Shown in pieces: positions 13,878-32,788 of a stretch of DNA of 44,784 bases; position 1 is the first letter of the stretch; each line of letters opens with the position of its first letter. The position numbers and the translations under genes are program-made. The DNA is from a virus, in IMG/VR virus record IMGVR_UViG_3300022752_004384, positions 1 to 44,784 of that record. One strand, given 5' to 3'. The notes under the pieces are model-generated. The model did no database searches. It was not told where the DNA came from and saw only the letters and a list, made by a program, of their open reading frames with translations.

Positions 13878-14270
13878 TTAGTTGACAGGATTATGCTTTA
13901 ATTGATAATCTTTTATTGCGGCTTTAATAGCATCCTCTGCTAGGATCGAACAGTGGATCTTGACTGGCGGGAGAGCCAATTCTTCAGCTATATGGGTATT
14001 ACGTATCGTGGATGCTTGGTCAATAGTTTTTCCTTTGACCCATTCTGTAACCAACGAACTGCTTGCAATCGCCGAACCACACCCGTACGTCTTGAATTTC
14101 GCATCTGTGATAATTCCTGTTTCATTATCTACCTTTATACTTAATTTTAAAACATCTCCGCACGATGGTGCTCCCACTAATCCAACTCCAACATTTTCTT
14201 CATCTTTATTGAATGAGCCTACATTACGGGGATTTTCATAATGATCTAACACTTTTTCACTGTAAGCCAT
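13878..14270 (-). CDS. iscU: IscU-type Fe-S cluster scaffold
   Basis: 130 residues, full family length. The three cluster ligands are present: Cys37 with Asp39 in PSCGDV, Cys63 in YGCGSAIASSS, and Cys106 in KIHCS. The chaperone-recognition motif LPPVK is intact just before the third Cys. The product assembles [2Fe-2S] clusters from cysteine-desulphurase sulphur and iron for transfer by IscA-type carriers. The gene start has its own AGGAG inside the end of the HNH gene. Its first 12 codons are also found, partly recoded, at 14892-14927, showing the HNH gene was inserted at this gene's 5' end. Confidence 0.93.
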   Translation of the reverse strand: MAYSEKVLDHYENPRNVGSFNKDEENVGVGLVGAPSCGDVLKLSIKVDNETGIITDAKFKTYGCGSAIASSSLVTEWVKGKTIDQASTIRNTHIAEELALPPVKIHCSILAEDAIKAAIKDYQLKHNPVN

Positions 14271-14271
14271 A

Positions 14272-14856
14272 TTATTCTCCTATTATACTTTTAACTACTT
14301 CTTCTGATTGAAAATTATCCCATTTTTTCCTATTTTCTTCTCCTAGGACCCATCTTAAATTTTTCCTACTTCCTAATATTTTTGGATCTATTCCTAACTC
14401 AAAACCTTGTTTAAAAGGAATAATATGATCTAATTGATACTGATCTTTCCTTTTACCTGTATTATTAGGTATCAAACCTTCTTGCTTCATAGCATACCAG
14501 GAACGATAGGTTACTTTTCTACACTCTCTTTTATAAGATGTGAATTCATCATCTATATAATTTTTAGGACGTATATTATTTAAACGCCCGTCTTTATTAG
14601 GGTTATTTTCTTTCCATTTTATACTTTGTGCTTCGTTAGGAACACCTTTGTTCCAACCCCACCCTTTTTTTAATCCTTCTCTATTTTGTTTTGCCTTTTG
14701 TTCTTCAGTCAATATTTTCCCTTTATTCCATGGATCATATTCACCTCTGTTTAAAGGATTTTTACATTTTTGAGAACAATATTCTAAAAATCTAGGCCTA
14801 GTTTCAAAAGTAGATGAACAAAATAAACAATTTCTTATAATACCATATTTTTTCAT
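14272..14856 (-). CDS. HNH homing endonuclease with zinc ribbon and NUMOD3 motifs
   Basis: 194 residues. An N-terminal Cys4 ribbon (CLFC at about 11-14 and CSQKC at about 28-32) is followed by DNA-contact motifs of the NUMOD3 type (PWNKGK and GWNKGVPN) and a C-terminal HNH core, QLDHIIPFKQG with SRKNLRW. This domain set is typical of free-standing phage homing endonucleases, which cut an allele lacking the insertion. The ATG overlaps the stop of the truncated iscU leader (ATGA) and the stop is one base before the intact iscU, so both flanks are coupled. Confidence 0.85.
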   Translation of the reverse strand: MKKYGIIRNCLFCSSTFETRPRFLEYCSQKCKNPLNRGEYDPWNKGKILTEEQKAKQNREGLKKGWGWNKGVPNEAQSIKWKENNPNKDGRLNNIRPKNYIDDEFTSYKRECRKVTYRSWYAMKQEGLIPNNTGKRKDQYQLDHIIPFKQGFELGIDPKILGSRKNLRWVLGEENRKKWDNFQSEEVVKSIIGE

Positions 14857-14927
14857 ACAGTATTTATTATCTTGGCGCTCCAGTGTGTAAGTTCATAATG
14901 ATCTAACACTTTTTCAGAATAAGCCAT
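14853..14927 (-). pseudogene. Truncated duplicate of the iscU 5' end (24 codons)
   Basis: The frame reads MAYSEKVLDHYE, identical to the first 12 residues of iscU, then diverges (LTHWSAKIINTV) and stops inside the HNH start. Over 36 bases, 33 match the real iscU start; the three differences are synonymous. It keeps the original GAGGAG ribosome site and now acts as a leader coupled to the HNH gene. Confidence 0.8.
14861..14868 (-). promoter_or_regulatory. Late-promoter-like AATAAATA before the HNH gene
   Basis: AATAAATA on the minus strand ends four bases before the HNH ATG, within the truncated iscU leader. This could give an HNH transcript independent of the leader; homing endonucleases of T4 often have their own late promoter. 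Confidence 0.4.
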
Positions 14928-15084
14928 AGTCGTAAATCTCCTCTTCTATGTTTGTTGTTTGTTTTTGTATGGGTGGAAATTTTAGATTTTCAAACTTTTG
15001 GAGGAAAAGGCTCCAGGCCTCATCCTCTTCTGGTGTTACTATATCTGTTGGTATAGACTTACTTGCACCCGTAGATTGTACCAT
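14914..15084 (-). CDS. Small acidic protein (56 aa)
   Basis: 56 residues from the ATG at 15084, rich in Glu, with DEAWSLFLQKFENLKFPP in the middle. It overlaps the end of the exported-protein gene by 26 bases, and its stop (TGA) lies inside the duplicated iscU start. The overlap explains why the duplicate keeps TCT for its serine codon: that codon carries part of this gene's stop. Function unknown. Confidence 0.55.
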   Translation of the reverse strand: MVQSTGASKSIPTDIVTPEEDEAWSLFLQKFENLKFPPIQKQTTNIEEEIYDYGLF

Positions 15085-17252: not shown

Positions 17253-20200
17253 TTACATACGACCTATTACAACTTCAATCATGCCCTCTTCGCCATCAAA
17301 ATCTTCCAGTGCTTTACCTATGACCATACCCATTCTTGGATCATCATGTGCTTTAGCATAACCATCGCCTGCACTGACTAACATATCACCCTTGGAGATC
17401 TTACCTTTTACCTTAACTGGTACTCGACCCTGTAGTGCTATAGTAGCAGTATGTTCAGCTTCTAATTCAGCGTTCATCAAATGAGCTGGATTCTTACTTA
17501 TTACGCCTATGACCTTTCTTGTTTCTTCAATGGCCAATGTAACTTCATACACGCCACCTAACATTAGTACAGTGCCTTCAGCATAGTCAGCATCAGCTAC
17601 ATAGTTTTCTGCCAAGTCAGCATAACGTGCTGATGTGGCAGTACAAGTTGCTAATCCTGCAGAATTTACTTGAAATCGAAATACATTTGCTCCATCCGAC
17701 CAGCCACCAATTTTAAACACATTGTCGGTATCTAAGCCCATATTGACTGCATATGCACCAGCACGATGGAAACTTAGTTGCGCTGCGTTTGTAGTAGATC
17801 CCATAACCTGTGGACCGCCTACACCGCCATAACCAACACCAACACTGGCAGTAGAATAACCTAAGATACCAGCAGTACCAGTCACATTGGTTGCATTGGT
17901 TGCATTGGTAGAAGAACCTGCACTGTCTGCGTATCCTACGTGTACATCTGCATGGCCAGCATTATTTGCATCATAACCATATAATCTCCAATATGTTCCA
18001 GTCCAATATGTTTGAACACTATAACCACTGTCGTCATCACGTCTATATAATCTAGTGGTTCCTGGTCTGGCATCGCTGACCCTAATATTTGGCGTGTTGG
18101 CTGTATTGAGCATACGATACCAACCTGTGAATGCACCTGAACCCCACACACCTCTTATCCAGCACGAACTAGGATCACCTGCACCTACAGCCATTTGATA
18201 ACCATAACGAGTGGTTCCATCTGTAAAGTGTAGTGCCTGATGACCTTGCCAATGGGTTGTACCTGGGGGTTGATTTGCAGGGCCACTCCAAGTATCAAAA
18301 AATCCTGATCCCCAGTTAAATACGGTATTAAGATCTTCTTGCCCCCAACCCATGGAGCCTACCCAATAACCCGAATTTGAAGTGATGGCAGGTCTAGAAG
18401 TTCCATATTTGGCCGTCAATCCCAAATGAGCCTTAGCTGTATTAATAGAACTATATCTAAGATATCCATCATAGCTCATGTAAATACGATCTGGGAAAGT
18501 ATTACCTAAATCACCAGATGTAGTATTGATCCAACCTGCTTGAATATAACCATTACTGTCAGTCCTTACTATTTTATCAGCCTCGTTATTACGACCTCCA
18601 TGAACTGCCAAACCACCTGCTGTAGTGGCATTGGTTACTGATTGACTACCAATATTCGCCGAAGTAATAAATTCAACCCAACCACCAAATGTACCAGCAG
18701 AAATATTACGTTTCCACATACGGTTTGCATTATCTTCCCAACCGTGTGCATATTGTGTGCCCCAATAGTTAGATCCATTACTATGACGCATTGTTTCTAA
18801 GAAATGCCAACCCGCATTGGGAGCATTTGTGCTACCATTACATTCAATCCAACTGGTTCTATGAGCTGGAGTATCCGTAAACTGTGTATTTGCGTTACTT
18901 GCTGTGCCTGATGGCGATTGATACAATGCATTGGTAGCAGTACCATTTATGTTCATTGATTGACCACTGATAAATGCAGCCACTTTAGCAGCCGTTGCAG
19001 ATCGATAATAGTTATCACCGAACTTGGCCATTATATAAGTTATAGTGCCAGTGCTTACATCATCACTACTATTAAAATAGTTAGAGTTAATATAACGGCC
19101 ATAGAAATCACCATTAGCATCACGAGCAACAATGGCATTGGCAGTATTTGCACTGGTAGCATTTGTGCCTAAAGTTATTGTAGCATTAGTTCCTTGATTG
19201 GTAGTAAATGATCCACTACCAGTTAAACCACCGCCTGTGGCAATATTGATAGTTGCATTACCTACATAATTAGTATAATTATTACTATGTAATATTTTTG
19301 ACCATGCAGTAGTTCCACTTCCTGCTGTTGATCTATAGAAAAGATCCTGACTATAAAAATCAGCAGCCAACTGCATAGCAAAATAGTTAGCATCATTACT
19401 ATGTGTAGTACTCATTAGATGACACCAACTATTCGTGTTTATAGGCCAACCTTCAGCTGTAGTTGCTGAACTGGACTCCCAAAATCCTGAAGTTACTCTA
19501 GTTGTTAAATTATCCTGATTTTCACTATCATTGCTAAAACTAGCCCCAGTAGCATAGCCTACTAAATTAGCTGTAATAATTCTCGCACTGAAGTCGCCAT
19601 TGCCATCTCTGAAAACAGTGGTGCTAGCAGTATTAGCACTGGTAGCATTACTGGCAACAGTAAATGTGGCTGCTGTAGAGCTATTGGCTGTAAATGTAGT
19701 ACTACCACTAATACCGTTGCCAGAGGTGTTCATAGTTAATGTAGCATTACCAACATTAGCTGTGCCTACACTAGCACCGGTTACGTGTCCAAAGTCATCG
19801 AAGTTAAGACTTATATCTTGTATAAATGTAGTACCACTATTATCACTGGCTAAATTGCTTACACTGCTAGTATCAGCATGTGCTATGAATACAGCATTGC
19901 TTTCTCCTGGACTTATATTAGTAAAAGTTAATCCAGAATTTACAGTGCCGCTTAATGTAGCACTACCAGGAGTTCCAGCACTAATTGTAGCAATATAATT
20001 ACCAGTTGTATCTGTTCCTAGTGCTACACTATTTGCTGATACTGTTAATGCTACGTTGCTAACGTTGGCACTGCCATCTATAGTAAAGTTACCTGTTATA
20101 TCTCCGCCAGCAAAAGTTACAGTTCTAGCTGTGCTCCATTTATCAGCACTGGTTGCATTTCCTGATACGCTTCCTGTTATATTGCCTTCAAAAGTTCCTG

Positions 20201-23200
20201 CAATAACAGTAGATCCTGCACCAAATGTCCATTTATCTACACTCTCATCCCATAGTAAACTTACATTAGTACTAGTACCTCTTTCAACTTCAATACCTGA
20301 ATTTTGACTTGGTGTTCCTGTTTCATCAGCATTTAATACTATTATATTATCACCAATATTAACTGTATTACTATTGACTGTTGTAGTTGAGCCATTTACT
20401 GTGAGGTTACCTGTGATTATAGTATTACCACCTACACTTAACGCTCCCCCAATATTAACATTTTCACTAATACCTGCACCACCTGTCACTACCAATGTTC
20501 CAGTTGTAGTATTAGTGCTGGTAATATTAGCAGGCATTTCAATACGACCTGTTCCTAAGACTTTAAGTCTATCAGTACTGGTCAGTAAAGTTGGACCACC
20601 ATAGCTAATTGTTACGTAGCTACCTGTATCTGTTACATCAACAAACTTTTCAATACGCCAATGACTTCTAGCTAATGTATCCTTAACAAATGCAGTACCA
20701 TTCCAGTTTAAATTGGTCATCCAACTATAGGTATGCAGTGCTGGACTGGTTATTCTACTCTTGAATGAGGTAGTTAATGCACTTTGTATTGTGACACTGG
20801 TCAATGCTCCAGTTCCAGCATAGGTCAAATTTAACGTAGGATCATCTATTACAGGGCTAGCCTTATATATGACCTGTCCACCAGTTGTAAAGTTTATGGT
20901 ACTACCATCAGTAGCTTGGAATGTCATTGTATTGCTAGCAGTTAATGTTTTAGTATTGGCTAATGTAAATGTACCGGTGCTATTTGTAATAGTCATTCCA
21001 TTTACAGTTTTGTTGGTCAATGCTTCTGTACCAGCCAATGTAGCCAATGTTCCTGTTGTTGGGAAGGTAACCGTAGTTGCAGCAGTCATAGTAAATGTAC
21101 TAGCAAAGGCTCCGCTGGTTGTTAGATTACCACCTAATGTTATAGTTTTGGTACCGTTATTAACACCAGTACCACCGTATGTTGGACTAATAATAGTTGC
21201 TTGCCATGTACCAGTTGCGATAGTTCCTACCTTGGTTAAGCTACTATTGACTACCCCCGATCCTAATGTTGTGCTGCTCAATACATCAACACCATTAATT
21301 TTATAAGTTTTTCCAGTGACGAGATCCATATTCTCGCTACTGGTCCAACTACTAGTTGTCTGTTTCCAACTAAATGACTTGTCAGTAGTACCTTTTACTG
21401 TGATACCGCCACCATTAGCAGTTGCATTAGTAGCTCCACCTGTGCTAAACACTACAGCAGTACCGTTTGGTGATATTTGATCAGGTGGAGTATCTGCTGT
21501 AAATGTAAATAGATTTGGACCGTCAATACTGACCACTCTAGGATTAGATCCTAGCTGTCCTCCTGATACTCTGCTTAAGGTCATACCAGGAATCATACCA
21601 CCAGTGTTGGCAGTTATAGTTGAGGTCAGTGATCCAACAGCAGTGAAGTTAATATTACCTGAACGATTACTTATTGGTTCTACAGAACCTAATTCAATAT
21701 TATTATCGTCCATCTTAATATCATAGGCATTTAACGTACTGGCAGCACCTGTAATATCAACATTACCTAATACTGTTAATCCATCAATGATTAAACTATT
21801 ACTCCATTGTGGAGCAGAGCCAGTACTAGTTAAAACTCTATTGGCAGTTCCTATAGGAAGTTTTTGTAAGTTTGTTGCACCGTTAGCATAGAGCATGTCA
21901 CCCACTGTATATGCGCTATAATTAGTACCCCCTCTACTAACTGGGACTGGTTGTGATAGATTTACTGGGTTTAGGTAGTATGTACTATCATATCCATCTA
22001 ATGTTCCTGCATCTACTACCCCACTTTTAATTGTTACTGTACCCTGTGCTGGTCCTGATCCAACATCAAATTGACTTTTATTAAACTTGGATACACCTAT
22101 ATTTGTGTATCCTGGTGTAGATGTACTTTCCTGTGCGCCACTTACTATGTCAATACCAATGGTTACTTCGTTGTAATATTCATTGAGACCACCAGATCCT
22201 GGGTCATAATAGGAACCTGTGATACTAATAGCACTATCTGTATTTTGTCGTTTGATCTTTTGTACAGCCTTGGCCCATTGATTGTCACCTCTGAGGAATG
22301 TGTTGGAATTGGCTAGTCCTATAGCCAATCTACTGGTACTCATTATGCCGCTTACAATATTATTAGTATCAATATTGTTGGCACTTAGACTACTCCAGTT
22401 TTCTGGTAGTATTGAAGCATTATCTACTACACCTATAATTCTAATACTTTGTTTTCTAAAACTGGCAGTGCCTGTACCTGTGTTGGTAAAGTTAAACGCA
22501 CCAATAGTAAGTCCTAGAGTACTGGCCACTGAATCAGCTCTATTTTCGTGTATAGTAAATGTGTTTTGTGTGATTGATCCTACGAAGAAAATACTCTGTG
22601 TCAATATACCATAAGGTGGATCTGCTGCTATAATCTTCACAGCATCCCCTGTGGCAAATCCATGATCTGGAATATAAACTGTATCCTTAGTGATATTGAT
22701 TACTTGCAGAGTAAATGTTTGACTGCCAGCTCCTGAGTTCTGTATGGTTAGTTTGCTGCTTAGACTGTAGTTAGTATATAGTTCAATAGTATCAGCATCG
22801 ACTCGTTTGATGTAATATACAGAATTATTAATAATACCACCTAATGGTGTTCCAAATCCTGCATTATATACCACAGGATCGCCATCATCAAATGGATGCC
22901 CTATAATAGTGATACGACTCAATGCTGTATTCACTGCACCACCTGAACCAGTACTAGCTGCATTGAATGAAGCCACTACAGAAGAATCCATAGCACCTGT
23001 AGTCTGTGTAACTACTACAGAGTCTTCTGTGAATTCTGGAGCTATTAGACTAGCATTAAACTTCAATGCACCAACAACATCTACGAATAATCTATTTTGT
23101 ATTTGACTAACTTTTACGCTAAATGCTGAACCACCTGTGCGTCCTCCTAGGCTCGCATTACTGGCACTGAGGCGATCTGTGGTAGTATATCCACTACCAC

Positions 23201-26200
23201 CTGCTGTAAGTGCTACATTAACTACTACTCCACCACTAAGGAAAATATCAGCTCTAGCACCTGTGCCTGATCCACCTGTAAGTGGAACATCAGGATATAT
23301 CCCAGATACAGGTTGTGTATATCCACCTCCGCCTGCTAGTCCATTAGTAGGATCATTTGAATTATCAACAGCATTAATTACACCTAATACTAGAGATTCT
23401 ATATTACCCTGTGCTTTACTGTTACTGCCGGTTACACTGGTAACTCCTGTAAAGTTGTAGGTTTGTGTAGTATCAAGTAATAGGATTTGTTTAGCATCTA
23501 ATTCACTTAAAATATAATTTGTATTCTGATCAGGAATCACACCACCTACTACTGTGGGTGTTCTGCCTGTTGCGGATCCATTTTTACTTAATAATCCTGT
23601 AGTATTGAAGTTAGCATTGAATGTTTTAGTTAAGCTACCAACGATCAATGTAGTGCCGTTAGTCGCTCCTACTACCCTACCTGTGGCGCCTGATCCTGCT
23701 TGTAGGATTAGATCACCATCAGCAGCCACAATGGTTCCATTAAGAGTAAGCTGTACGCTACTATATGTTTCAATGGCTAAATCACCGTTTAAAATACTAG
23801 TAGGTGGTATAGTATTAACAAGATTCAATCTACTGCGATAACCACTACTTCTATATACAAGGAAGTTTCTTAATGGTGGTATCTGATCAGCATTTAGTTT
23901 GCCCAAGGCGTTAAGCTGTGGAATACCTCCTGGTACTGTGGTTGTAGTCAGTGCTTTGTCAATAAAGTCACCCAATCTATTCTCTAAGAATCCACGAACA
24001 GCAGCCTGTGTACTTAATCTTTTATGGCTTGGACCGCCTACTTCATTATCACCTAGGTCAATGTCAGCACTGAATTCTTCAATAGTAATGTTACCTACGG
24101 CCAATTTCAAAGCATCCAATGCAGCAATACTCACTGTATTAGTAAATTGTACATTACCAGTTTTGTTTTCTGCCTTAATAAAGTCACCAACTTTAAAGTC
24201 ACCTAATTCATTGGTTCCTGAACTATATACACGCCCTGGTAATTCACTGACCTGTTCATATTCTACTCTAGTTCTACCACCGTTTTGTGGTAGTGCGTTA
24301 TAATCTATACCACTACCTGCATATTCCCAAGTATGACTACTGCTATTACAAATACTGGGTCTATGTAACCATATTTGTTTTTCTGGTAAGGTTTCTAAGT
24401 TGATAAGTTCATTACCGCTGGTTGTGGCCAATATTTTAAATGTAGCTGTGTATAGATTATCTACGTTATTAACATCAGTTACATCAATGTTTAATATAGG
24501 GGTAGCACTGTGATCATATTGAATAACAGAATTCAATGTAAAGTTATTTCTAATAAAAGAAATACCTATAAGAACTTTTTCAACGCTGACTACTAGATTA
24601 CGTGTGGTTGGATCCCAACTATATACATAAGCTCTATTTGGTTGCGATCCATCTGTGGTACCTTCTATGACTCTTCCAGGAACAAATGTATATTCCTTGC
24701 CAACAGGAGGAGGCTGTATCTGTAGTTTTTGATAGACTACGTGTGATTCAGTGAGATCATCAATAAAGAATTCTTTAATGTTCTTGAGGAATAAATGATC
24801 ACCTGCGGGTAGTGGGGCCGAGAACTTGACCTTGATTTCAAAACTGTCATCCAAATATAATTCAAACTGGTTTAGATTCACCGTCTTAACCACATAAGTT
24901 TGTTCATCATATAAACCTGTGATTACACTGTTGCCATTTCTACTATAGACTATACGATTGGTATTTTGGAAACCATGATTAGGTATTGTTATAAGCCCTG
25001 TAACTGTATTGATTACAGGTTCTGTCTGTGCAGGTGAGGTCAAGGGAATAATTACATTATTTGCAGGTGTAAATGTCACACTATCATTGGCCTGTTTATA
25101 ACTGTTGGTCACGTCACCTATATTACTGTAGTCAATGATTTCAGGAACATTGATAATACTAGTAGTAATATCTATAATAATATCAAATAAATCACCTACA
25201 CGGCCCTGTGCATCTGGATGTACTAATAGTATAGTCTGTGCCTTAAGTCTTTCAAATGCTGCTATGTTCTGCGTTTTCTGTGCTATCACTGCTGCCGAAG
25301 TAGCTGTAGCATAGGCTAAACCTGCCTCCACACTCTTACTGTTACCACCAGTGAGCACATCGTAGGCCACTGCTTCAAGAATTAATATTGTGTCTCGTTT
25401 ACAGGTATCATCATTATAGGTAAACCCTGTATAATATGGTTGTGTATTGTTGGCTATTTGATCATCAATCCATATGATCAAAGCGTCTCTTAATTCTTCT
25501 TTGTTGTTTAATATTGTTGTATAAGTGTTTCTATAAACAGGATTTCTAAATCTTATTACATAGTGCTGTACAGGTAAATCACCAAAACCAATAGCGGTAA
25601 GAGTTTGTTGTGCTCCAGCGGTACCTGTGCCAACTACTATACCTTTATTAAAATCAAAAGCATTTGGACTATATCCATTAGCCCTCAATGCAAACTGTCC
25701 AAAGTTAGTAGCACTATTGGTAATACTTAAATATCCACCACTTTGTACATAACTACCATTTAAACAAAAGATTTGGAAACAACTTACAATCTGTGCATAA
25801 GCATCATTGATCACACGATAGCCTGTACCACCAAAGCTCAACATGGTAAATGCATTACCCACCATTGACTTACCTTGTTGTGGAGCAGGACCTTCTACTG
25901 GATTCTCTGCTTCAATCTGATTAGCTGGTATGTTAGGTGTGCGTACCTTACTACCATCTACTAATACGCCATTACCGCCTAAGAAACTGATAATAGAGCA
26001 GTTTTGTACATAAGGGCTTATACTGATTACAGGCTTGTTGTTAGGTAATCTACCATAACCAACACGACTACATTCAGGATCAGCAGGATCATCAAAGGCC
26101 ACGGCATAGTCAAATGTAAAGCTAGGAACCTTATTGCTATCTAAAGCGTCTCTAAAAGTTATCTCTGTGAAATAACAACCATTACGCACACGCAGCATGT

Positions 26201-29200
26201 CCTTGCCAGCGTTCCTTGGTCTGATATTACAGGCACGTAGTCCAGCACCTACTACACTGACATTGTCTGGTATGATAATAGGATTATCTTCATAGTAATC
26301 ACCGCTGGCTACTGCTATAACTAGTCGTTTTTCATTAGGAATATAGTCTGCTACAAAAGCCACTGTCTCAGTTTGGATCAGAGCTTTTTGTGCCAATAGG
26401 TTACTGCGAGCATCACTCTTTATTGGGGATATTCTTGTTGCATTAGGCAATACTATTGCAGGTGCTTGACCTGGGCCTTGATCCACAATGGTTACTAAAG
26501 ATGTTAATAGTTGATCTACCGTAGTTTTAGCTGTGCTACTGGCCGTTAGTCCTGCTCCATAGACGAATGAGGTATTGTCCAATACCTCAGGTATGATAAC
26601 TGTTTTTAAATGTTCATATGTTATAGCACTGGCTGCTCTATCATTGAAGATAGGTAAGCCTGCTCCATAGGCAAAATATTTTTTAGCAGCATCTACAGTT
26701 TGACTGTTACCACCGTACATGAGATCATAGGCAACACTATATATTATGTATTCAACATCACGAGAGCACTTAGCCGTATCGTAGGTAAAGTTACTAAACT
26801 CTAAACTTATGAAATCACTAACTGCTGTGATTATAGCTGATTTACTTTCTGTCACTAACTCTACATTTAACTGTGTAGTTGGATCTGCCACACTAACATC
26901 TGGTAGTTGTAGATTATTTAATGACGCAGTACTTTCAGTTGTGATCACATTGATGATTATATCAACTAAGTTTTTACATTCTGTGGCAGTGGCTGTATTG
27001 GTTGCAGGATATGTTGCAGTATCCTGTGTTAGAGTATTAGTACTAGTCTTAACTATGGGAACAGCACGTACAATATTATCTATAATATTTTTTAGTCTAG
27101 TATATGCTGCCAGTGTTTGTGTTTTTTCACCCACACCCAGCTGTAGCACACTACCTAATAAGTAGGAGTCAGCAGCTCTATATGTGGCTGTGTTTCCGCC
27201 ATAGAGTATATCATAAGTAACAGCATCAACTATAAACTCAACATCACGAGCACAGGTGATAAAGTCAGTTGTAAAAGCAGGATATGTAAATTTGATCCAC
27301 TCTATGATTTCTAATTTGATAAAGTTCTTATTTTGTTGTAGTTGATTTTTGGCACTTAACTGATCGGCTGCTATGCCTGTGGGATTTGTAAATACCACAG
27401 GATCTGGTGTTGCTCCGTTGAGAAGATCTATTATATCCTGTATTTTATTTTTATAGCTTAGGAAGAAGGAGCTACTGCTAGTATATTGTTCTGTTTCTCT
27501 ATACAACTTTACTAGAGATGCTTTAGTTTGTTCTAACTGGTCTGCGTACTGTGCATTTGTAGCCTGCTGTCTAATATAAGCAAACTGATTTTGTCTAGTA
27601 TTTAAATTAGTGCCTAATGCTATATCATAAATAGCACCATCTATGATCAATCCTAAGTCACGTTCGCATTTGGCTTCTGTGGCTGCATCATAATTGAACC
27701 CAACAAAAGTATTATTTGTAAAGTTAATGACCTGTGTAGCAATATATGAAATATTGTTGATCAATAAGTCTTTAGCATCAACAAATCCAGATGACAACCC
27801 AGCAGGAGTTGGCATGGTAACTGCGGGCACTGGAGCAGTACCGATCCTTAATATGTTACCAGCTGTAGTATTGGCAAATATGTTTGTAACTGTTTGTATG
27901 CTGGCAGTAACATCAAGAGCTTCTTGACCGCTTTGTGTAGCAATGACCTTAAGGGCTAGATAGTTTAAGGCTCGTAGTGTTATTTCTTTTTGTGATATCA
28001 ATACAGCACTGGCTGTAGCATTGCTATATGTAAAGCCAGCCTTTACGCTTTGCCAGTTACTACCATAGATAAGATCATATCCAATAGCATCTATGATTAA
28101 GCCAACATCCCTAAAACAGGTTTGATCATTGAATTCATTACGTTGCTTATAGACCAAACCACTGGCTATTTGTAGAGCACGTTTAATAGTTTTAACTGGT
28201 TTGTTGATGCCATCAAAATTATCGTTACCATAATCTGCACTGACACTGACCTGACCACCACCAAATAGATCAGGACTGGAAAACTCTAGTTTATCACCTT
28301 TACGGTTCAATGTGAGAATAGACCCATCTACGCCTAATGATCTTGGGAATGTCAGTGTGTAACTATTAACGAAGTTATCTGGATTAGTTCCAGTAGGTGC
28401 TCTCAGTCCTACATAGTTAGTACCATTGGCTGTGAGTTCTTTCAGTCTCAGTTCGCCATAGTTATTAACATTGATACCATCTGTATTAATCAGTGTGGAT
28501 TTAATAGTGCTAGGAAAGCTTTCACCAATCTTTGTATTATCAATATTACCACTGTTTATATCTACACTATCTAAAGTAGTCAATCCATCTACAGTGAGAT
28601 TTTCTTTGATCAAGACATCGTTATTAACAACAATGTTATTAACAGTGATATCGTCTAGTAACAAACTGCCTAATGTGGCCTGACCATCTACGTTTAGGTC
28701 ACCATCAATATCTACATCACTGGTTGTATGTAGTGTCGTAACTGTAACGTCATCTGCTGTAACATCACCAGCAGTAACATCTCCTGTGAATAAGCTTGTA
28801 CCTGTTACGCTTAGGTTGCCCCCTACATTGAGGTTTTCACCAATGCCTACACCACCCTCAACTACTACTGCTCCTGTACTAGCACTAGTAGAACTAGTAT
28901 TAACTGAACTATCATTAGGATCAATTACTCTTATTAGATTATTAAAATCTGCTGGTCCTGTGACATTTAAATCTACAATATCAGCTGTATCATTAACTGT
29001 TAAAAAATCTGTAATTATATTTTCCGCAGTAACATCACCTGTTAGATTACCAGTTACATTGCCTGTAACTTGACCTGTATATACTGCATTAGTACCATCA
29101 GTGCCTCTATCCAATATTACAGTTTCAATAATTTGAGAAGGATTGGCAGGATTAGGCCTATACAATATAACATCTGCATATATCTTTGCATCGTTACCAT

Positions 29201-30404
29201 CAGTGCCATTTTCTAATATTTTTACACCATTGGCTGCGAAGATATCACCAGTACTGGGACCAATAGTAATACCTTCAAATTCACCTATGAATCTTTCAGT
29301 AGCTTCAATTATAGTACCTGTAATGGTTCTTGGTTGAGTAGCCCCTATAACGGTTGCGTCAATATTACCACCGTTTATATCAACTTGATCTAATATACTA
29401 AGACCATCGCTGTCAATGTTACCTGTGACATTACCTATAAATTCTGGCTTTCTATAAGTAGGTGCTGTTGAGCTTCCGCCGGTTCCATTTTCTAGTATCT
29501 TAGTTACACCATCTTCTGCATAGATATCACCTGCAAATCTACCTCTTACAGTGCCTTCTACATCCCCATAAAATATAGCTGGTTTATATGTTGGAACATT
29601 AGTTGGTCCACCTGTACCTTTGTCTAATATTTTTGTAGTGCCGTTAGCAGCAAAAAGATTAACAACACCAGTTCCCTCTAGCTTGCCTACAAATTTGTTT
29701 GACGCTGTAATAATGGTACCACCAATTGTACTAGGATTAACATCGCCAATTATAGTGTTATTAATTTTACCACCAGTAACCACCACATTGCTCATTTCAC
29801 TGGTGCCAGATGTTTGGTACACGGTTCCAATTAGTTTGCCTTTAAATTCAGCACTTAGTCCATCTAAACTATTTTCAACTATTTTTACATTACCATTATT
29901 ACTATAAACATCACCATACAAGTCACCAAAAACATTACCTGTTACATTACCCTGTAAATTTGCTATTATATCTTCTTCTACATCTATGCTGTCTGCTTTG
30001 ATAGTTCCAGTAATATTAACGTTACCGGTGACACCTAATCCACCTACTATTATCACTGTGCCTGTTTGTGGATCAGTACTAGGTATATTTTTATTAAAAA
30101 GAGTTTTTACTGATACTGTAACTAACTCAGGATCAACCACAACAGTTTCTATATTATCGTTATTGAATACAATAGAATTAAGTCTACCTTGAGGCCCTAT
30201 TACCAGAAAGGTATTATCTGAAAGCTCACTATTAAGTTTGCCTAAAGCTACTGTGTAAGTAAGCTCGTTCCAACGCTTGATGCCATCCCCTATTTTAAAA
30301 TTAGTAGAATCTAAATCTATACCAATTTCACCTTGGGCCAAAACTGGATTTATAGCTTGCCAGTTTGCTCGTAAATCTCGTCTTAATTGAATCCTTTTCG
30401 CCAT
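17253..30404 (-). CDS. Giant long tail fibre / adhesin (4,383 aa)
   Basis: The gene takes up 29% of the window. The N terminus (MAKRIQLRRDLRANW..NPVLAQGEIGIDL...KIGDG) is the Mtd/fibre N-terminal attachment domain. Residues about 55-700 hold short repeats of the NVTGNVFGDLYGD and ILENGTGG type. Between about 760 and 1690 a cysteine motif, C-x-RD...IID/VDA..YD...GGN, recurs five times. A pectin-lyase-like segment (PDNVSVVGAGLRACNIRPRN) lies near 1360-1420. SRGGTNYSAY and GTWQATIISPTYGGTGVN fibre repeats follow from about 2820. The C-terminal 130 residues (ARYADLAENYVADADYAEGT... to IEVVIGRM) resemble the intramolecular chaperone/auto-cleavage domains of phage fibres. It determines host binding. 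It is much longer than T4 gp37 (1,026). AGAAAATA-type weak ribosome site. Confidence 0.9.
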   Translation of the reverse strand: MAKRIQLRRDLRANWQAINPVLAQGEIGIDLDSTNFKIGDGIKRWNELTYTVALGKLNSELSDNTFLVIGPQGRLNSIVFNNDNIETVVVDPELVTVSVKTLFNKNIPSTDPQTGTVIIVGGLGVTGNVNITGTIKADSIDVEEDIIANLQGNVTGNVFGDLYGDVYSNNGNVKIVENSLDGLSAEFKGKLIGTVYQTSGTSEMSNVVVTGGKINNTIIGDVNPSTIGGTIITASNKFVGKLEGTGVVNLFAANGTTKILDKGTGGPTNVPTYKPAIFYGDVEGTVRGRFAGDIYAEDGVTKILENGTGGSSTAPTYRKPEFIGNVTGNIDSDGLSILDQVDINGGNIDATVIGATQPRTITGTIIEATERFIGEFEGITIGPSTGDIFAANGVKILENGTDGNDAKIYADVILYRPNPANPSQIIETVILDRGTDGTNAVYTGQVTGNVTGNLTGDVTAENIITDFLTVNDTADIVDLNVTGPADFNNLIRVIDPNDSSVNTSSTSASTGAVVVEGGVGIGENLNVGGNLSVTGTSLFTGDVTAGDVTADDVTVTTLHTTSDVDIDGDLNVDGQATLGSLLLDDITVNNIVVNNDVLIKENLTVDGLTTLDSVDINSGNIDNTKIGESFPSTIKSTLINTDGINVNNYGELRLKELTANGTNYVGLRAPTGTNPDNFVNSYTLTFPRSLGVDGSILTLNRKGDKLEFSSPDLFGGGQVSVSADYGNDNFDGINKPVKTIKRALQIASGLVYKQRNEFNDQTCFRDVGLIIDAIGYDLIYGSNWQSVKAGFTYSNATASAVLISQKEITLRALNYLALKVIATQSGQEALDVTASIQTVTNIFANTTAGNILRIGTAPVPAVTMPTPAGLSSGFVDAKDLLINNISYIATQVINFTNNTFVGFNYDAATEAKCERDLGLIIDGAIYDIALGTNLNTRQNQFAYIRQQATNAQYADQLEQTKASLVKLYRETEQYTSSSSFFLSYKNKIQDIIDLLNGATPDPVVFTNPTGIAADQLSAKNQLQQNKNFIKLEIIEWIKFTYPAFTTDFITCARDVEFIVDAVTYDILYGGNTATYRAADSYLLGSVLQLGVGEKTQTLAAYTRLKNIIDNIVRAVPIVKTSTNTLTQDTATYPATNTATATECKNLVDIIINVITTESTASLNNLQLPDVSVADPTTQLNVELVTESKSAIITAVSDFISLEFSNFTYDTAKCSRDVEYIIYSVAYDLMYGGNSQTVDAAKKYFAYGAGLPIFNDRAASAITYEHLKTVIIPEVLDNTSFVYGAGLTASSTAKTTVDQLLTSLVTIVDQGPGQAPAIVLPNATRISPIKSDARSNLLAQKALIQTETVAFVADYIPNEKRLVIAVASGDYYEDNPIIIPDNVSVVGAGLRACNIRPRNAGKDMLRVRNGCYFTEITFRDALDSNKVPSFTFDYAVAFDDPADPECSRVGYGRLPNNKPVISISPYVQNCSIISFLGGNGVLVDGSKVRTPNIPANQIEAENPVEGPAPQQGKSMVGNAFTMLSFGGTGYRVINDAYAQIVSCFQIFCLNGSYVQSGGYLSITNSATNFGQFALRANGYSPNAFDFNKGIVVGTGTAGAQQTLTAIGFGDLPVQHYVIRFRNPVYRNTYTTILNNKEELRDALIIWIDDQIANNTQPYYTGFTYNDDTCKRDTILILEAVAYDVLTGGNSKSVEAGLAYATATSAAVIAQKTQNIAAFERLKAQTILLVHPDAQGRVGDLFDIIIDITTSIINVPEIIDYSNIGDVTNSYKQANDSVTFTPANNVIIPLTSPAQTEPVINTVTGLITIPNHGFQNTNRIVYSRNGNSVITGLYDEQTYVVKTVNLNQFELYLDDSFEIKVKFSAPLPAGDHLFLKNIKEFFIDDLTESHVVYQKLQIQPPPVGKEYTFVPGRVIEGTTDGSQPNRAYVYSWDPTTRNLVVSVEKVLIGISFIRNNFTLNSVIQYDHSATPILNIDVTDVNNVDNLYTATFKILATTSGNELINLETLPEKQIWLHRPSICNSSSHTWEYAGSGIDYNALPQNGGRTRVEYEQVSELPGRVYSSGTNELGDFKVGDFIKAENKTGNVQFTNTVSIAALDALKLAVGNITIEEFSADIDLGDNEVGGPSHKRLSTQAAVRGFLENRLGDFIDKALTTTTVPGGIPQLNALGKLNADQIPPLRNFLVYRSSGYRSRLNLVNTIPPTSILNGDLAIETYSSVQLTLNGTIVAADGDLILQAGSGATGRVVGATNGTTLIVGSLTKTFNANFNTTGLLSKNGSATGRTPTVVGGVIPDQNTNYILSELDAKQILLLDTTQTYNFTGVTSVTGSNSKAQGNIESLVLGVINAVDNSNDPTNGLAGGGGYTQPVSGIYPDVPLTGGSGTGARADIFLSGGVVVNVALTAGGSGYTTTDRLSASNASLGGRTGGSAFSVKVSQIQNRLFVDVVGALKFNASLIAPEFTEDSVVVTQTTGAMDSSVVASFNAASTGSGGAVNTALSRITIIGHPFDDGDPVVYNAGFGTPLGGIINNSVYYIKRVDADTIELYTNYSLSSKLTIQNSGAGSQTFTLQVINITKDTVYIPDHGFATGDAVKIIAADPPYGILTQSIFFVGSITQNTFTIHENRADSVASTLGLTIGAFNFTNTGTGTASFRKQSIRIIGVVDNASILPENWSSLSANNIDTNNIVSGIMSTSRLAIGLANSNTFLRGDNQWAKAVQKIKRQNTDSAISITGSYYDPGSGGLNEYYNEVTIGIDIVSGAQESTSTPGYTNIGVSKFNKSQFDVGSGPAQGTVTIKSGVVDAGTLDGYDSTYYLNPVNLSQPVPVSRGGTNYSAYTVGDMLYANGATNLQKLPIGTANRVLTSTGSAPQWSNSLIIDGLTVLGNVDITGAASTLNAYDIKMDDNNIELGSVEPISNRSGNINFTAVGSLTSTITANTGGMIPGMTLSRVSGGQLGSNPRVVSIDGPNLFTFTADTPPDQISPNGTAVVFSTGGATNATANGGGITVKGTTDKSFSWKQTTSSWTSSENMDLVTGKTYKINGVDVLSSTTLGSGVVNSSLTKVGTIATGTWQATIISPTYGGTGVNNGTKTITLGGNLTTSGAFASTFTMTAATTVTFPTTGTLATLAGTEALTNKTVNGMTITNSTGTFTLANTKTLTASNTMTFQATDGSTINFTTGGQVIYKASPVIDDPTLNLTYAGTGALTSVTIQSALTTSFKSRITSPALHTYSWMTNLNWNGTAFVKDTLARSHWRIEKFVDVTDTGSYVTISYGGPTLLTSTDRLKVLGTGRIEMPANITSTNTTTGTLVVTGGAGISENVNIGGALSVGGNTIITGNLTVNGSTTTVNSNTVNIGDNIIVLNADETGTPSQNSGIEVERGTSTNVSLLWDESVDKWTFGAGSTVIAGTFEGNITGSVSGNATSADKWSTARTVTFAGGDITGNFTIDGSANVSNVALTVSANSVALGTDTTGNYIATISAGTPGSATLSGTVNSGLTFTNISPGESNAVFIAHADTSSVSNLASDNSGTTFIQDISLNFDDFGHVTGASVGTANVGNATLTMNTSGNGISGSTTFTANSSTAATFTVASNATSANTASTTVFRDGNGDFSARIITANLVGYATGASFSNDSENQDNLTTRVTSGFWESSSATTAEGWPINTNSWCHLMSTTHSNDANYFAMQLAADFYSQDLFYRSTAGSGTTAWSKILHSNNYTNYVGNATINIATGGGLTGSGSFTTNQGTNATITLGTNATSANTANAIVARDANGDFYGRYINSNYFNSSDDVSTGTITYIMAKFGDNYYRSATAAKVAAFISGQSMNINGTATNALYQSPSGTASNANTQFTDTPAHRTSWIECNGSTNAPNAGWHFLETMRHSNGSNYWGTQYAHGWEDNANRMWKRNISAGTFGGWVEFITSANIGSQSVTNATTAGGLAVHGGRNNEADKIVRTDSNGYIQAGWINTTSGDLGNTFPDRIYMSYDGYLRYSSINTAKAHLGLTAKYGTSRPAITSNSGYWVGSMGWGQEDLNTVFNWGSGFFDTWSGPANQPPGTTHWQGHQALHFTDGTTRYGYQMAVGAGDPSSCWIRGVWGSGAFTGWYRMLNTANTPNIRVSDARPGTTRLYRRDDDSGYSVQTYWTGTYWRLYGYDANNAGHADVHVGYADSAGSSTNATNATNVTGTAGILGYSTASVGVGYGGVGGPQVMGSTTNAAQLSFHRAGAYAVNMGLDTDNVFKIGGWSDGANVFRFQVNSAGLATCTATSARYADLAENYVADADYAEGTVLMLGGVYEVTLAIEETRKVIGVISKNPAHLMNAELEAEHTATIALQGRVPVKVKGKISKGDMLVSAGDGYAKAHDDPRMGMVIGKALEDFDGEEGMIEVVIGRM

Positions 30405-31459: not shown

Positions 31460-31774
31460 TTAGGTTATGATATTTCCGGCACTCACAGGCTGTATCCCTG
31501 TAGTTTGAAATATGAATTGATCAGCTATTTCTTTTACTGTATTACCTTTGAGTATAATCGCAGATTTAGAAATATTAAATTCATTGTCTAATTCTACTGT
31601 GATCATCATAGGAGTCATTGCCGGTCCTTTTTGAGTCATAGCAAGCATAATTGGGTTCTTAATTACAATATCTGCAATGTCCTCACTGATATATTTACCA
31701 ATAATTTCTTCGCCACTAATCAGCTTCAAACTGATAATATCACCTTCCTTAGACTTTGCTTTTTCTAATAACAT
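31460..31774 (-). CDS. Small Sm-fold-like phage protein (104 aa)
   Basis: Strand-rich 104 residues: DIISLKLISGEEIIGKYISE and DIVIKNPIMLAM look like the Sm1/Sm2 strands of LSm/Hfq-fold proteins, followed by ITVELDN and a C-terminal helix. Similar short proteins occur in T4-like marine phages. RNA binding is possible but not shown. Its ATG overlaps the stop of a duplicated glutaredoxin tail (TAATG). Confidence 0.5.
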   Translation of the reverse strand: MLLEKAKSKEGDIISLKLISGEEIIGKYISEDIADIVIKNPIMLAMTQKGPAMTPMMITVELDNEFNISKSAIILKGNTVKEIADQFIFQTTGIQPVSAGNIIT

Positions 31775-31818
31775 TATGCTGCCCCTTTTAAATATTTGGT
31801 AAGTTCATTATACCCACC
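31772..31818 (-). repeat. 47-bp direct repeat, copy B (glutaredoxin 3' end)
   Basis: Matches 32556-32602 at 44 of 47 positions. In this copy the frame still reads GGYNELTKYLKGAA and stop, the end of glutaredoxin, detached from the rest of the gene. It marks the right edge of the inserted FkbM segment. Confidence 0.85.
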
Positions 31819-31886
31819 TCTTCTGCGAATTCTTTGGTTTTATGATTTCTATTTCTAGTTGGAACGATTACGAGTACTTTTTTCAT
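31788..31886 (-). pseudogene. Remnant of a glycosyltransferase gene start
   Basis: The 32-codon frame opens with MKKVLVIVPTRNRNHKTKEF, very like the N terminus of family 2 glycosyltransferases (strand, then PTRNR). After about 24 codons it runs out of frame into the duplicated glutaredoxin tail and stops. It looks like the 5' end of a gene whose body was deleted. Confidence 0.6.
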
Positions 31887-31889
31887 AAA

Positions 31890-32558
31890 TTAAAATCCTC
31901 TGATATACCAGTCATCCCATTTAGAAATTTTTGGTAATATTCTAATATATTGATTCTCTTCTAAAAGATTTTTAAGTCTTTCACGGTTGTCCTTAATAAA
32001 GTTATGTTCAATAGTTATTAATTTAATTTGATATTTCGAATTAAAATTAAAATTTTTTAGAATATCGAATTCACTTCCTTCAGTATCAACTGATAGATAA
32101 TCTATTACTTCTGGACTATTGTTCTGTTCTAATAAATCAAATAGAGAAACAGTTGTTACTTGATAAGTTATTCCTTTTTTTCTAACCTTTGAGTGTTTAT
32201 CTCTAGCAAAAAAAGATTCTATTCCTGATAAACTGGGTTCAATAACTTCTTTAAAATTTAAAAGTTGATGGCTAGTGCCAAAAACTGCACGTTTATCTAT
32301 TATAGAAGATCTATTTTTTTCTAATAAGATATTATATGATACACAAGGTTCGGCAAGTATTCCATTCCATTGATACTTTTTTTCTAATAAAAGAGTATTA
32401 CTAAGTTTTATTCCATCACAAGCACCAAATTCTACAAAAAATCCATTCTTTTTATATTTATATAGTACAAGGGCTAAAACATCTTGTTTAAGTTGCGAGT
32501 AGTATTCTTCATTATAATTTAATACTTCATCTTTAATTTTTTCTAAATCTAAAATCAT
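31890..32558 (-). CDS. FkbM-family methyltransferase
   Basis: 222 residues with the class I SAM-binding motif FFVEFGACDGIKLSNT (about 40-55), WNGILAEPCVSYN, and the family motif DYLSVDTEGSEFDIL (about 153-167). FkbM enzymes O-methylate sugars or polyketides, often in surface-glycan clusters, so the substrate may be a glycan. The ATG overlaps the glutaredoxin stop (ATGA). The gene lies between the two direct repeats, and A+T content and codon usage look higher in A/T than in the adjoining nrd genes, consistent with acquisition. Confidence 0.85.
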   Translation of the reverse strand: MILDLEKIKDEVLNYNEEYYSQLKQDVLALVLYKYKKNGFFVEFGACDGIKLSNTLLLEKKYQWNGILAEPCVSYNILLEKNRSSIIDKRAVFGTSHQLLNFKEVIEPSLSGIESFFARDKHSKVRKKGITYQVTTVSLFDLLEQNNSPEVIDYLSVDTEGSEFDILKNFNFNSKYQIKLITIEHNFIKDNRERLKNLLEENQYIRILPKISKWDDWYIRGF

Positions 32559-32788
32559 AATGCTACCTCTTTTAAATATTTGGTAAGTTCATTATACCCA
32601 CCAATGAGTTCATCATTGATAAAGATTTGAGGGACTGTACGTGCTGTTGGCACTGATTCTAATAGTTCTTCCTTGGTGTAGCCGTCACCTATTTTACGCT
32701 CTTCAAAAGCTATGCCCTTTTGTTCTAGTAAAGCCTTGGCCATATCACAATATGGACAATGGTACTTACTCCATACGATTGCTTTCAT
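32555..32788 (-). CDS. Glutaredoxin
   Basis: 77 residues, a typical phage/bacterial size. The active site is CPYC (about 10-13), followed by TVPQIFIND with the cis-Pro and the C-terminal GGYNELTKYL motif. It reduces ribonucleotide reductase after each turnover. The frame is open 15 codons upstream, but the ATG at 32788 has GAGG 6 bases before it and fits the family start. It overlaps nothing of nrdB's end except the upstream frame and forms the nrdA-nrdB-grx unit. Confidence 0.9.
   Translation of the reverse strand: MKAIVWSKYHCPYCDMAKALLEQKGIAFEERKIGDGYTKEELLESVPTARTVPQIFINDELIGGYNELTKYLKEVAL
32556..32602 (-). repeat. 47-bp direct repeat, copy A (glutaredoxin 3' end)
   Basis: The intact copy, in frame with the glutaredoxin gene. 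Together with copy B at 31772-31818 it flanks the 737 bases carrying the FkbM gene and the glycosyltransferase remnant. Confidence 0.85.

Follow-up and report, generated by a model that had tools for sequence, protein, structure and literature searches.

Single AT-rich foreign genes that lie between core genes, are absent from relatives and leave their neighbours intact are known in phages as morons or cargo genes, gained through illegitimate recombination where two genes meet. In phage T4, homing is accompanied by one-sided events with illegitimate repair at microhomologies (PMC2988022). Gene 60 of the same phage has a take-off codon, GGA, next to a stop, a stem-loop at the take-off site, a landing codon that matches and a homing endonuclease close by (PMC5009743). 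According to a 2016 review, short natural counterparts of the gene 60 bypass have long been presumed to exist, and a natural in-frame stop-hop was not known (PMC5009743). Here we describe a viral stretch of 44,784 nucleotides (IMG/VR record IMGVR_UViG_3300022752_004384, hereafter the window), in which an FkbM gene lies between a glutaredoxin gene (grx) and an Sm-like gene. Like a moron, this is a single AT-rich, foreign-looking gene that relatives lack and that leaves both neighbours intact. It departs from morons in that 47 bp copied from the end of the upstream gene precede the downstream gene. Promoter-like sites in the insert number 9 versus 8.5 expected, and the sole terminator-like site lies outside the insert, on the opposite strand, so that a promoter or terminator of its own does not stand out from chance. 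The free-standing seg and mob homing endonucleases of T4 find their likeness at another site of the window, in iscU, where the junctions appear one-sided and illegitimate and gene ends are rebuilt, whereas neither an endonuclease gene nor a tract of co-conversion is seen at grx.

On the minus strand, the gene order is nrdB, grx, FkbM, a 68-nt stub, the second copy of the grx tail and the Sm-like gene (Table 1). Elsewhere in the window, positions 17253-30404 hold one ORF of 4383 aa, whose size and many degenerate internal repeats make it look tail-fibre-like.

Table 1. Coordinates of the features at the grx and iscU sites of the window.
Feature	Positions	Strand	Evidence or remark
Sm-like gene (104 aa), resident downstream neighbour	31460..31774	-	PHROG 527, E 7e-9
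Copy 2, detached glutaredoxin tail	31772..31818	-	keeps ancestral grx/Sm junction and ribosome-binding site (AAAGGGGCAGCATAATG)
Truncated ORF	31788..31886	-	sequence; starts with ATG at 31886, enters copy 2 out of frame
Insert between the tail copies (737 bp)	31819..32555	-	absent from empty-site relatives
FkbM-family methyltransferase (222 aa), cargo	31890..32558	-	PF05050, E 9.7e-15
grx (glutaredoxin, 77 aa), intact; 3' end is copy 1	32555..32788	-	PF00462, E 1.6e-15
Copy 1, working glutaredoxin tail	32556..32602	-	44/47 to copy 2
iscU (130 aa)	13878..14270	-	codons ~1-59 donor-replaced; no stop insert; site recoded to GAPSCGDVLKLSIKV
Probable HNH homing endonuclease (194 aa), inserted at iscU start	14272..14856	-	PHROG HNH, structure rows
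Stub of resident iscU start	14892..14928	-	stub region: 149 bp match the unbroken iscU start in L009's contig at 99.3%

The two 47-bp repeats are located where the original prediction had placed them and agree at the 44 positions that it had counted, with the first 34 positions identical in minus-strand order. The next-best match to the 47-mer inside the window reaches 26/47, and in ten Markov-shuffled windows the top match was only 26-28/47. One copy had been taken for the genuine end of grx and the other for a detached tail abutting the Sm-like gene, and both assignments hold. In copy 1, grx ends in ...KEVAL*, its stop overlapping the FkbM start codon as TTATGA, and the copy also supplies FkbM with its ATG and with a Shine-Dalgarno-like AAAGAGG. 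Copy 2 adjoins the Sm-like gene as TAATG, its final bases being the Sm-like ATG. The relatives have AAAGAGGCAGCATAATG immediately 5' of the Sm-like ATG, a junction common to diverged phages, from which copy 2 differs by one base and copy 1 by two; the private changes of copy 1 are GTAGCATT, where relatives read GCAGCATA. As for the name of the downstream gene, the Sm-like label is supported in Pfam only by a weak match (E 0.026), while the gene is a clear member of PHROG 527, whose function is unknown. Judged from the sequence, the duplication leaves glutaredoxin complete, provides the Sm-like gene anew with its stop-start junction and ribosome-binding site, and places such a site ahead of FkbM as well.

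The cargo between the repeats is, as predicted, an FkbM gene by its Pfam match, and, going by its family, presumably O-methylates a sugar or another small acceptor. Its base composition is unlike that of the genome (GC 25.3%, GC3 12.6%, versus a window GC of 37.6%), which gives it a foreign look; its nearest match, at 36%, is in a 595-kb uncultured phage. The stub, which comprises the 68 nt of the insert before copy 2, had been called a glycosyltransferase remnant. This is possibly the start of such a gene, judging from its VPTRNR-like beginning alone; the firmer label found no database support, with no match in Pfam or among phages (E<10) and with a DNA-pattern search of viral contigs returning only the twin contig described next. 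The insert itself was found in the window and in one other contig, IMGVR_UViG_3300014819_000725, which is 99.99% identical to the window over 12,666 bp and has the same arrangement. That twin was also the only result of a search for an FkbM donor in viral and bacterial collections, and a DNA search of the whole region against phages gave no match. No integrase, transposase or terminal inverted repeats were detected in the grx insert, and no endonuclease either, FkbM and the short stub being all that it holds.

Relatives were collected through grx, giving 80 viral contigs, some of them near-identical. The empty site is abundant among them: in 67/80 the Sm-like gene follows grx directly, often as TAATG, 12/80 have other cargo in between, and the remaining one is the window's twin. 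Other cargo between such repeats, the search for which had been proposed as a check, was found at none of the 80 loci. No second duplicated tail was detected among them, the best candidate (29/48) being within the chance range, and the 12 loci with other cargo all lack repeats. What they hold is varied: a Methyltransf_24 gene in L032, L045, L058 and L066, an S-adenosylhomocysteine hydrolase in L042 and L052, and structural-type ORFs in further clade members; no endonuclease was seen in the grx/Sm gap of relatives. Since the same gap holds varied cargo without duplicated tails, cargo gain at tight gene boundaries is common here and the tail duplication a one-off by-product. The Sm-like genes of the window and of two relatives, L009 and L010, are just 40-44% identical despite grx at 93-95%, and these three different genes are joined at the same stop-start sequence. 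By all appearances, then, the grx/Sm boundary recombines often.

The grx event is a genuine insertion of cargo, of a kind already known, in which the target end was duplicated unusually cleanly. Because copy 2 keeps the ancestral grx/Sm junction, the event can be described as 737 bp inserted with the tail duplicated. Both neighbours were intact after cargo entry, as had been claimed: since the tail holds the Shine-Dalgarno-like sequence of the next gene, grx is complete and the Sm-like gene is translatable. A tandem duplication of the whole grx gene, which had been named as the finding that would speak against an insertion, is absent. Both copies are of the resident type, since they agree where L009 or L010 has private bases, and since both carry the window lineage's bases at these sites no foreign grx tract was imported. 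Starting from what is directly observed, namely the empty site, the insert edges, the duplication, the intact neighbours, the polarity and the odd composition, we hold with moderate confidence that a foreign AT-rich FkbM gene and a short downstream fragment came to lie at the grx/Sm boundary through recombination that was illegitimate or used short homology; its simplest form would be a template switch. Such a switch would be set in phage recombination-dependent replication. Copying would pass through the glutaredoxin tail, jump to a foreign template near the Sm start codon and return to the original template 47 bp upstream of the point of departure, so that the tail would be copied twice. The end-sparing product would be the one seen because of selection among random joinings, since survivors would look so; we infer both this selection and the template switching itself. 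Microhomology at the foreign side of the junctions is invisible because no FkbM or stub donor was found. Against the template switch stands that the insertion event is seen in one lineage only. Loss of the cargo by recombination between the repeats, also part of the original prediction, is plausible and unseen: both insert-bearing contigs keep the insert, and the closest relatives with an empty site belong to lineages of their own.

The insertion had been likened to a second site in the window, at the start of iscU. In the contig of L009, the iscU site is empty and the endonuclease gene absent. Over codons 61-130, the window iscU is identical to that of L009's contig at 209/210 bases, versus only 87/120 over codons 21-60. 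The gene inserted at iscU is probably an HNH homing endonuclease, judging from its family and its structural model: PHROG HNH matches were obtained for 8/27 family members (best E 7.6e-5) and weak Pfam HNH matches for 15/27, and structural comparison of the model gave HNH nucleases as top rows (VIA Z up to 4.9, for an HNH nickase), while Foldseek of the model returned no significant match (E>1). The iscU site thus bears the marks of homing with co-conversion, in which one junction was homologous and the other illegitimate, as is described for T4 (PMC2988022). The likeness drawn between the two sites is only partial. At iscU, the stub is what is left of the resident start, and the working 5' end was supplied by the donor together with the probable HNH gene, whereas both tail copies at grx are of the resident type and neither a donor tract nor an endonuclease was seen.

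The chief rival to a template switch, which we consider unlikely, is a one-sided homologous event as at iscU, in which a related donor would already have had grx, FkbM and the glycosyltransferase in a row, with a homologous left crossover in grx and an illegitimate right join just upstream of the recipient's grx tail. The iscU site of the same genome has exactly such a geometry, with its probable endonuclease; T4 homing offers a precedent in illegitimate repair at microhomologies (PMC2988022); and an illegitimate right end would be expected to cut an ORF short, as is the case in the stub. A closely related donor tail is possible because the copies differ at 3/47 positions, about as L009 and L010 differ from them. 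However, grx lacks a donor-like tract, the insert lacks an endonuclease, and no relative has grx followed by FkbM. We find it very improbable that a site-specific integration or a transposition brought the cargo to the 3' end of glutaredoxin, in which case the 47-bp repeats would be attachment sites or a target duplication. The flanking repeats do rebuild the gene end, like attachment sites in gene 3' ends, but the insert is without integrase, transposase or terminal inverted repeats and repeated tails occur in none of the other grx loci. A length of 47 bp is also far above that usual for transposon target duplications, which counts against transposition. An assembly chimera or cross-mapping at the repeat is more improbable still, for while this is a metagenomic contig and assemblers can be misled by direct repeats, a second contig record is 99.99% identical through insert and flanks, and the two gene ends keep their frame and look functional. 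The grx case is one in which a phage takes cargo into a tight operon and neither neighbour is harmed, because the duplicated tail ends the protein upstream and provides a ribosome-binding site downstream.

Relatives of the endonuclease directly precede iscU wherever the contig is long enough, and about 69 related phage iscU genes have 6-9 nt inserted right after Cys37-Gly38. The insert reads GGN, stop, 0-3 nt, GGN, then Asp39, in three frame classes. This GGN-stop-(0-3 nt)-GGN arrangement is present in 34/35 of the distinct insert-bearing iscU genes found through the endonuclease. In the wider set (n=68) the stops are TGA (36), TAG (17) and TAA (15); the pattern was searched as TRR, and TGG never occurred among the 68. 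The first two bases of take-off and landing codons always match, and the exact triplet does in 29/68. None of 81 endonuclease-free iscU genes carried the insert in a first sample, which favoured intact genes. Pattern scans at the DNA level, which were independent of the endonuclease and covered the 7- and 8-nt classes, yielded 92 contigs (64 distinct) from 83 metagenomes, and both IscU halves are encoded at all of these loci. Among the 62 insert-bearing loci with enough upstream sequence, an endonuclease or its remnant was present in 49 and none was recognised in 13. A scan of bacterial and archaeal genomes, 257 billion bases in all, gave no true match to the 7-nt pattern; the lone match in a bacterial genome was a chance TGG match outside iscU. 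Examples of insert-bearing genes are L089, L091, L094, L096, L099-L103, L105-L107, L110 and the iscU loci among L264-L350. The stop insert and the hairpin described below are kept, with no recognisable upstream endonuclease, in L269, L270, L273, L277, L282, L296, L304, L312, L320, L323, L325, L332 and L340; the insert persists there as a resistance allele would.

Several other features mark iscU in these phages. Endonuclease-bearing iscU genes without the stop insert are often recoded at GAPSCGDVLxLSIKV, as in the window (13878-14270) and in L136-L140, and in the latter a stub and an endonuclease are again found together, with the site recoded alike (GLVGAPSCGDVLxLSIKV). The recoded motif suggests a second route of escape from cleavage. 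An intein-like Hint insertion of roughly 300 aa is located at IscU Cys63 in L114 (5560-7050), L118 and L136-L140. In L114 and L118 it lies in the second half of iscU, alongside the stop insert, and in L114 it is in frame (Hint E 1.3e-4, below Pfam's cut-off). As L114 has the Hint insertion and the stop insert in one gene, both catalytic-cysteine regions of phage IscU seem to be targets of mobile elements. L009's contig, the closest relative, has a different AT-rich ORF upstream of iscU (L169 1315-1995, minus strand), which the window does not have; it is possibly a methyltransferase (Pfam E 0.014 only), and its start codon overlaps the stop of the preceding gene.

The interrupted iscU genes are not dead, since purifying selection acts on both halves (median dN/dS 0.19 for the N-terminal and 0.14 for the C-terminal half). 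Simple readthrough or a fixed frameshift is ruled out because inserts of 6, 7, 8 and 9 nt occur at one position. A split IscU made through reinitiation is disfavoured as well. Met41, where reinitiation might be sought, is encoded by ATG in 80/81 endonuclease-free, insert-free iscU genes, but 4/35 insert-bearing genes have CTT there, and in L132 and L134 there is no start codon within the next 30 codons.

The 45 nt that end at the first GGN fold strongly in 69/69 insert-bearing sequences, with a median of -24.8 kcal/mol versus -10.8 in sequences without the insert. Each of these hairpins has its end at the first GGN, and the first G of that take-off codon closes the stem. Across 33 distinct sequences, 330/330 cells of the outer 10-bp stem are paired, with compensatory changes at 3 pairs; the covariation score of 0.231 compares with 0.118 in shuffles (0/500 as high) and at most 0.085 in slid windows. 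Genes of insert-free iscU do not have this hairpin, and pairing at their equivalent columns is 66%. The residue encoded by the 5' arm is Gln or His in 69/69 insert-bearing genes and in 0/85 insert-free ones, so that the RNA seems to dictate the protein. A role as endonuclease binding site only is disfavoured, as the 13 iscU genes without a recognisable endonuclease gene keep the hairpin.

These relatives, and not the window itself, resemble T4 gene 60 in having Gly take-off and landing codons, a stop after the take-off codon, a hairpin that ends at the take-off codon and, in most, an endonuclease gene just upstream. They differ in a gap of 3-6 nt versus 50, in their three frame classes, in a third base that often differs between take-off and landing codons, and in the host gene and the endonuclease. 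We propose that iscU is translated by hopping because T4 gene 60 shares the codons, the stop, the stem-loop and the nearby homing endonuclease. On this sequence evidence we think it likely that the window's iscU site is one form of an iscU-specific homing-endonuclease cassette, and that the 6-9 nt stop insert of its relatives, at the catalytic Cys37-Gly38 codons, would protect iscU while ribosomes would hop from GGN to GGN by way of the hairpin. The iscU family matters more than the grx insertion and deserves follow-up. Its dozens of candidates from those 92 contigs and 83 metagenomes differ naturally in how long the gap is, in frame and stop, and in how well the codons match, so the bypass question can be tested directly. 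If the proposal is true, T4 gene 60 bypassing would have a short natural counterpart that is widespread.
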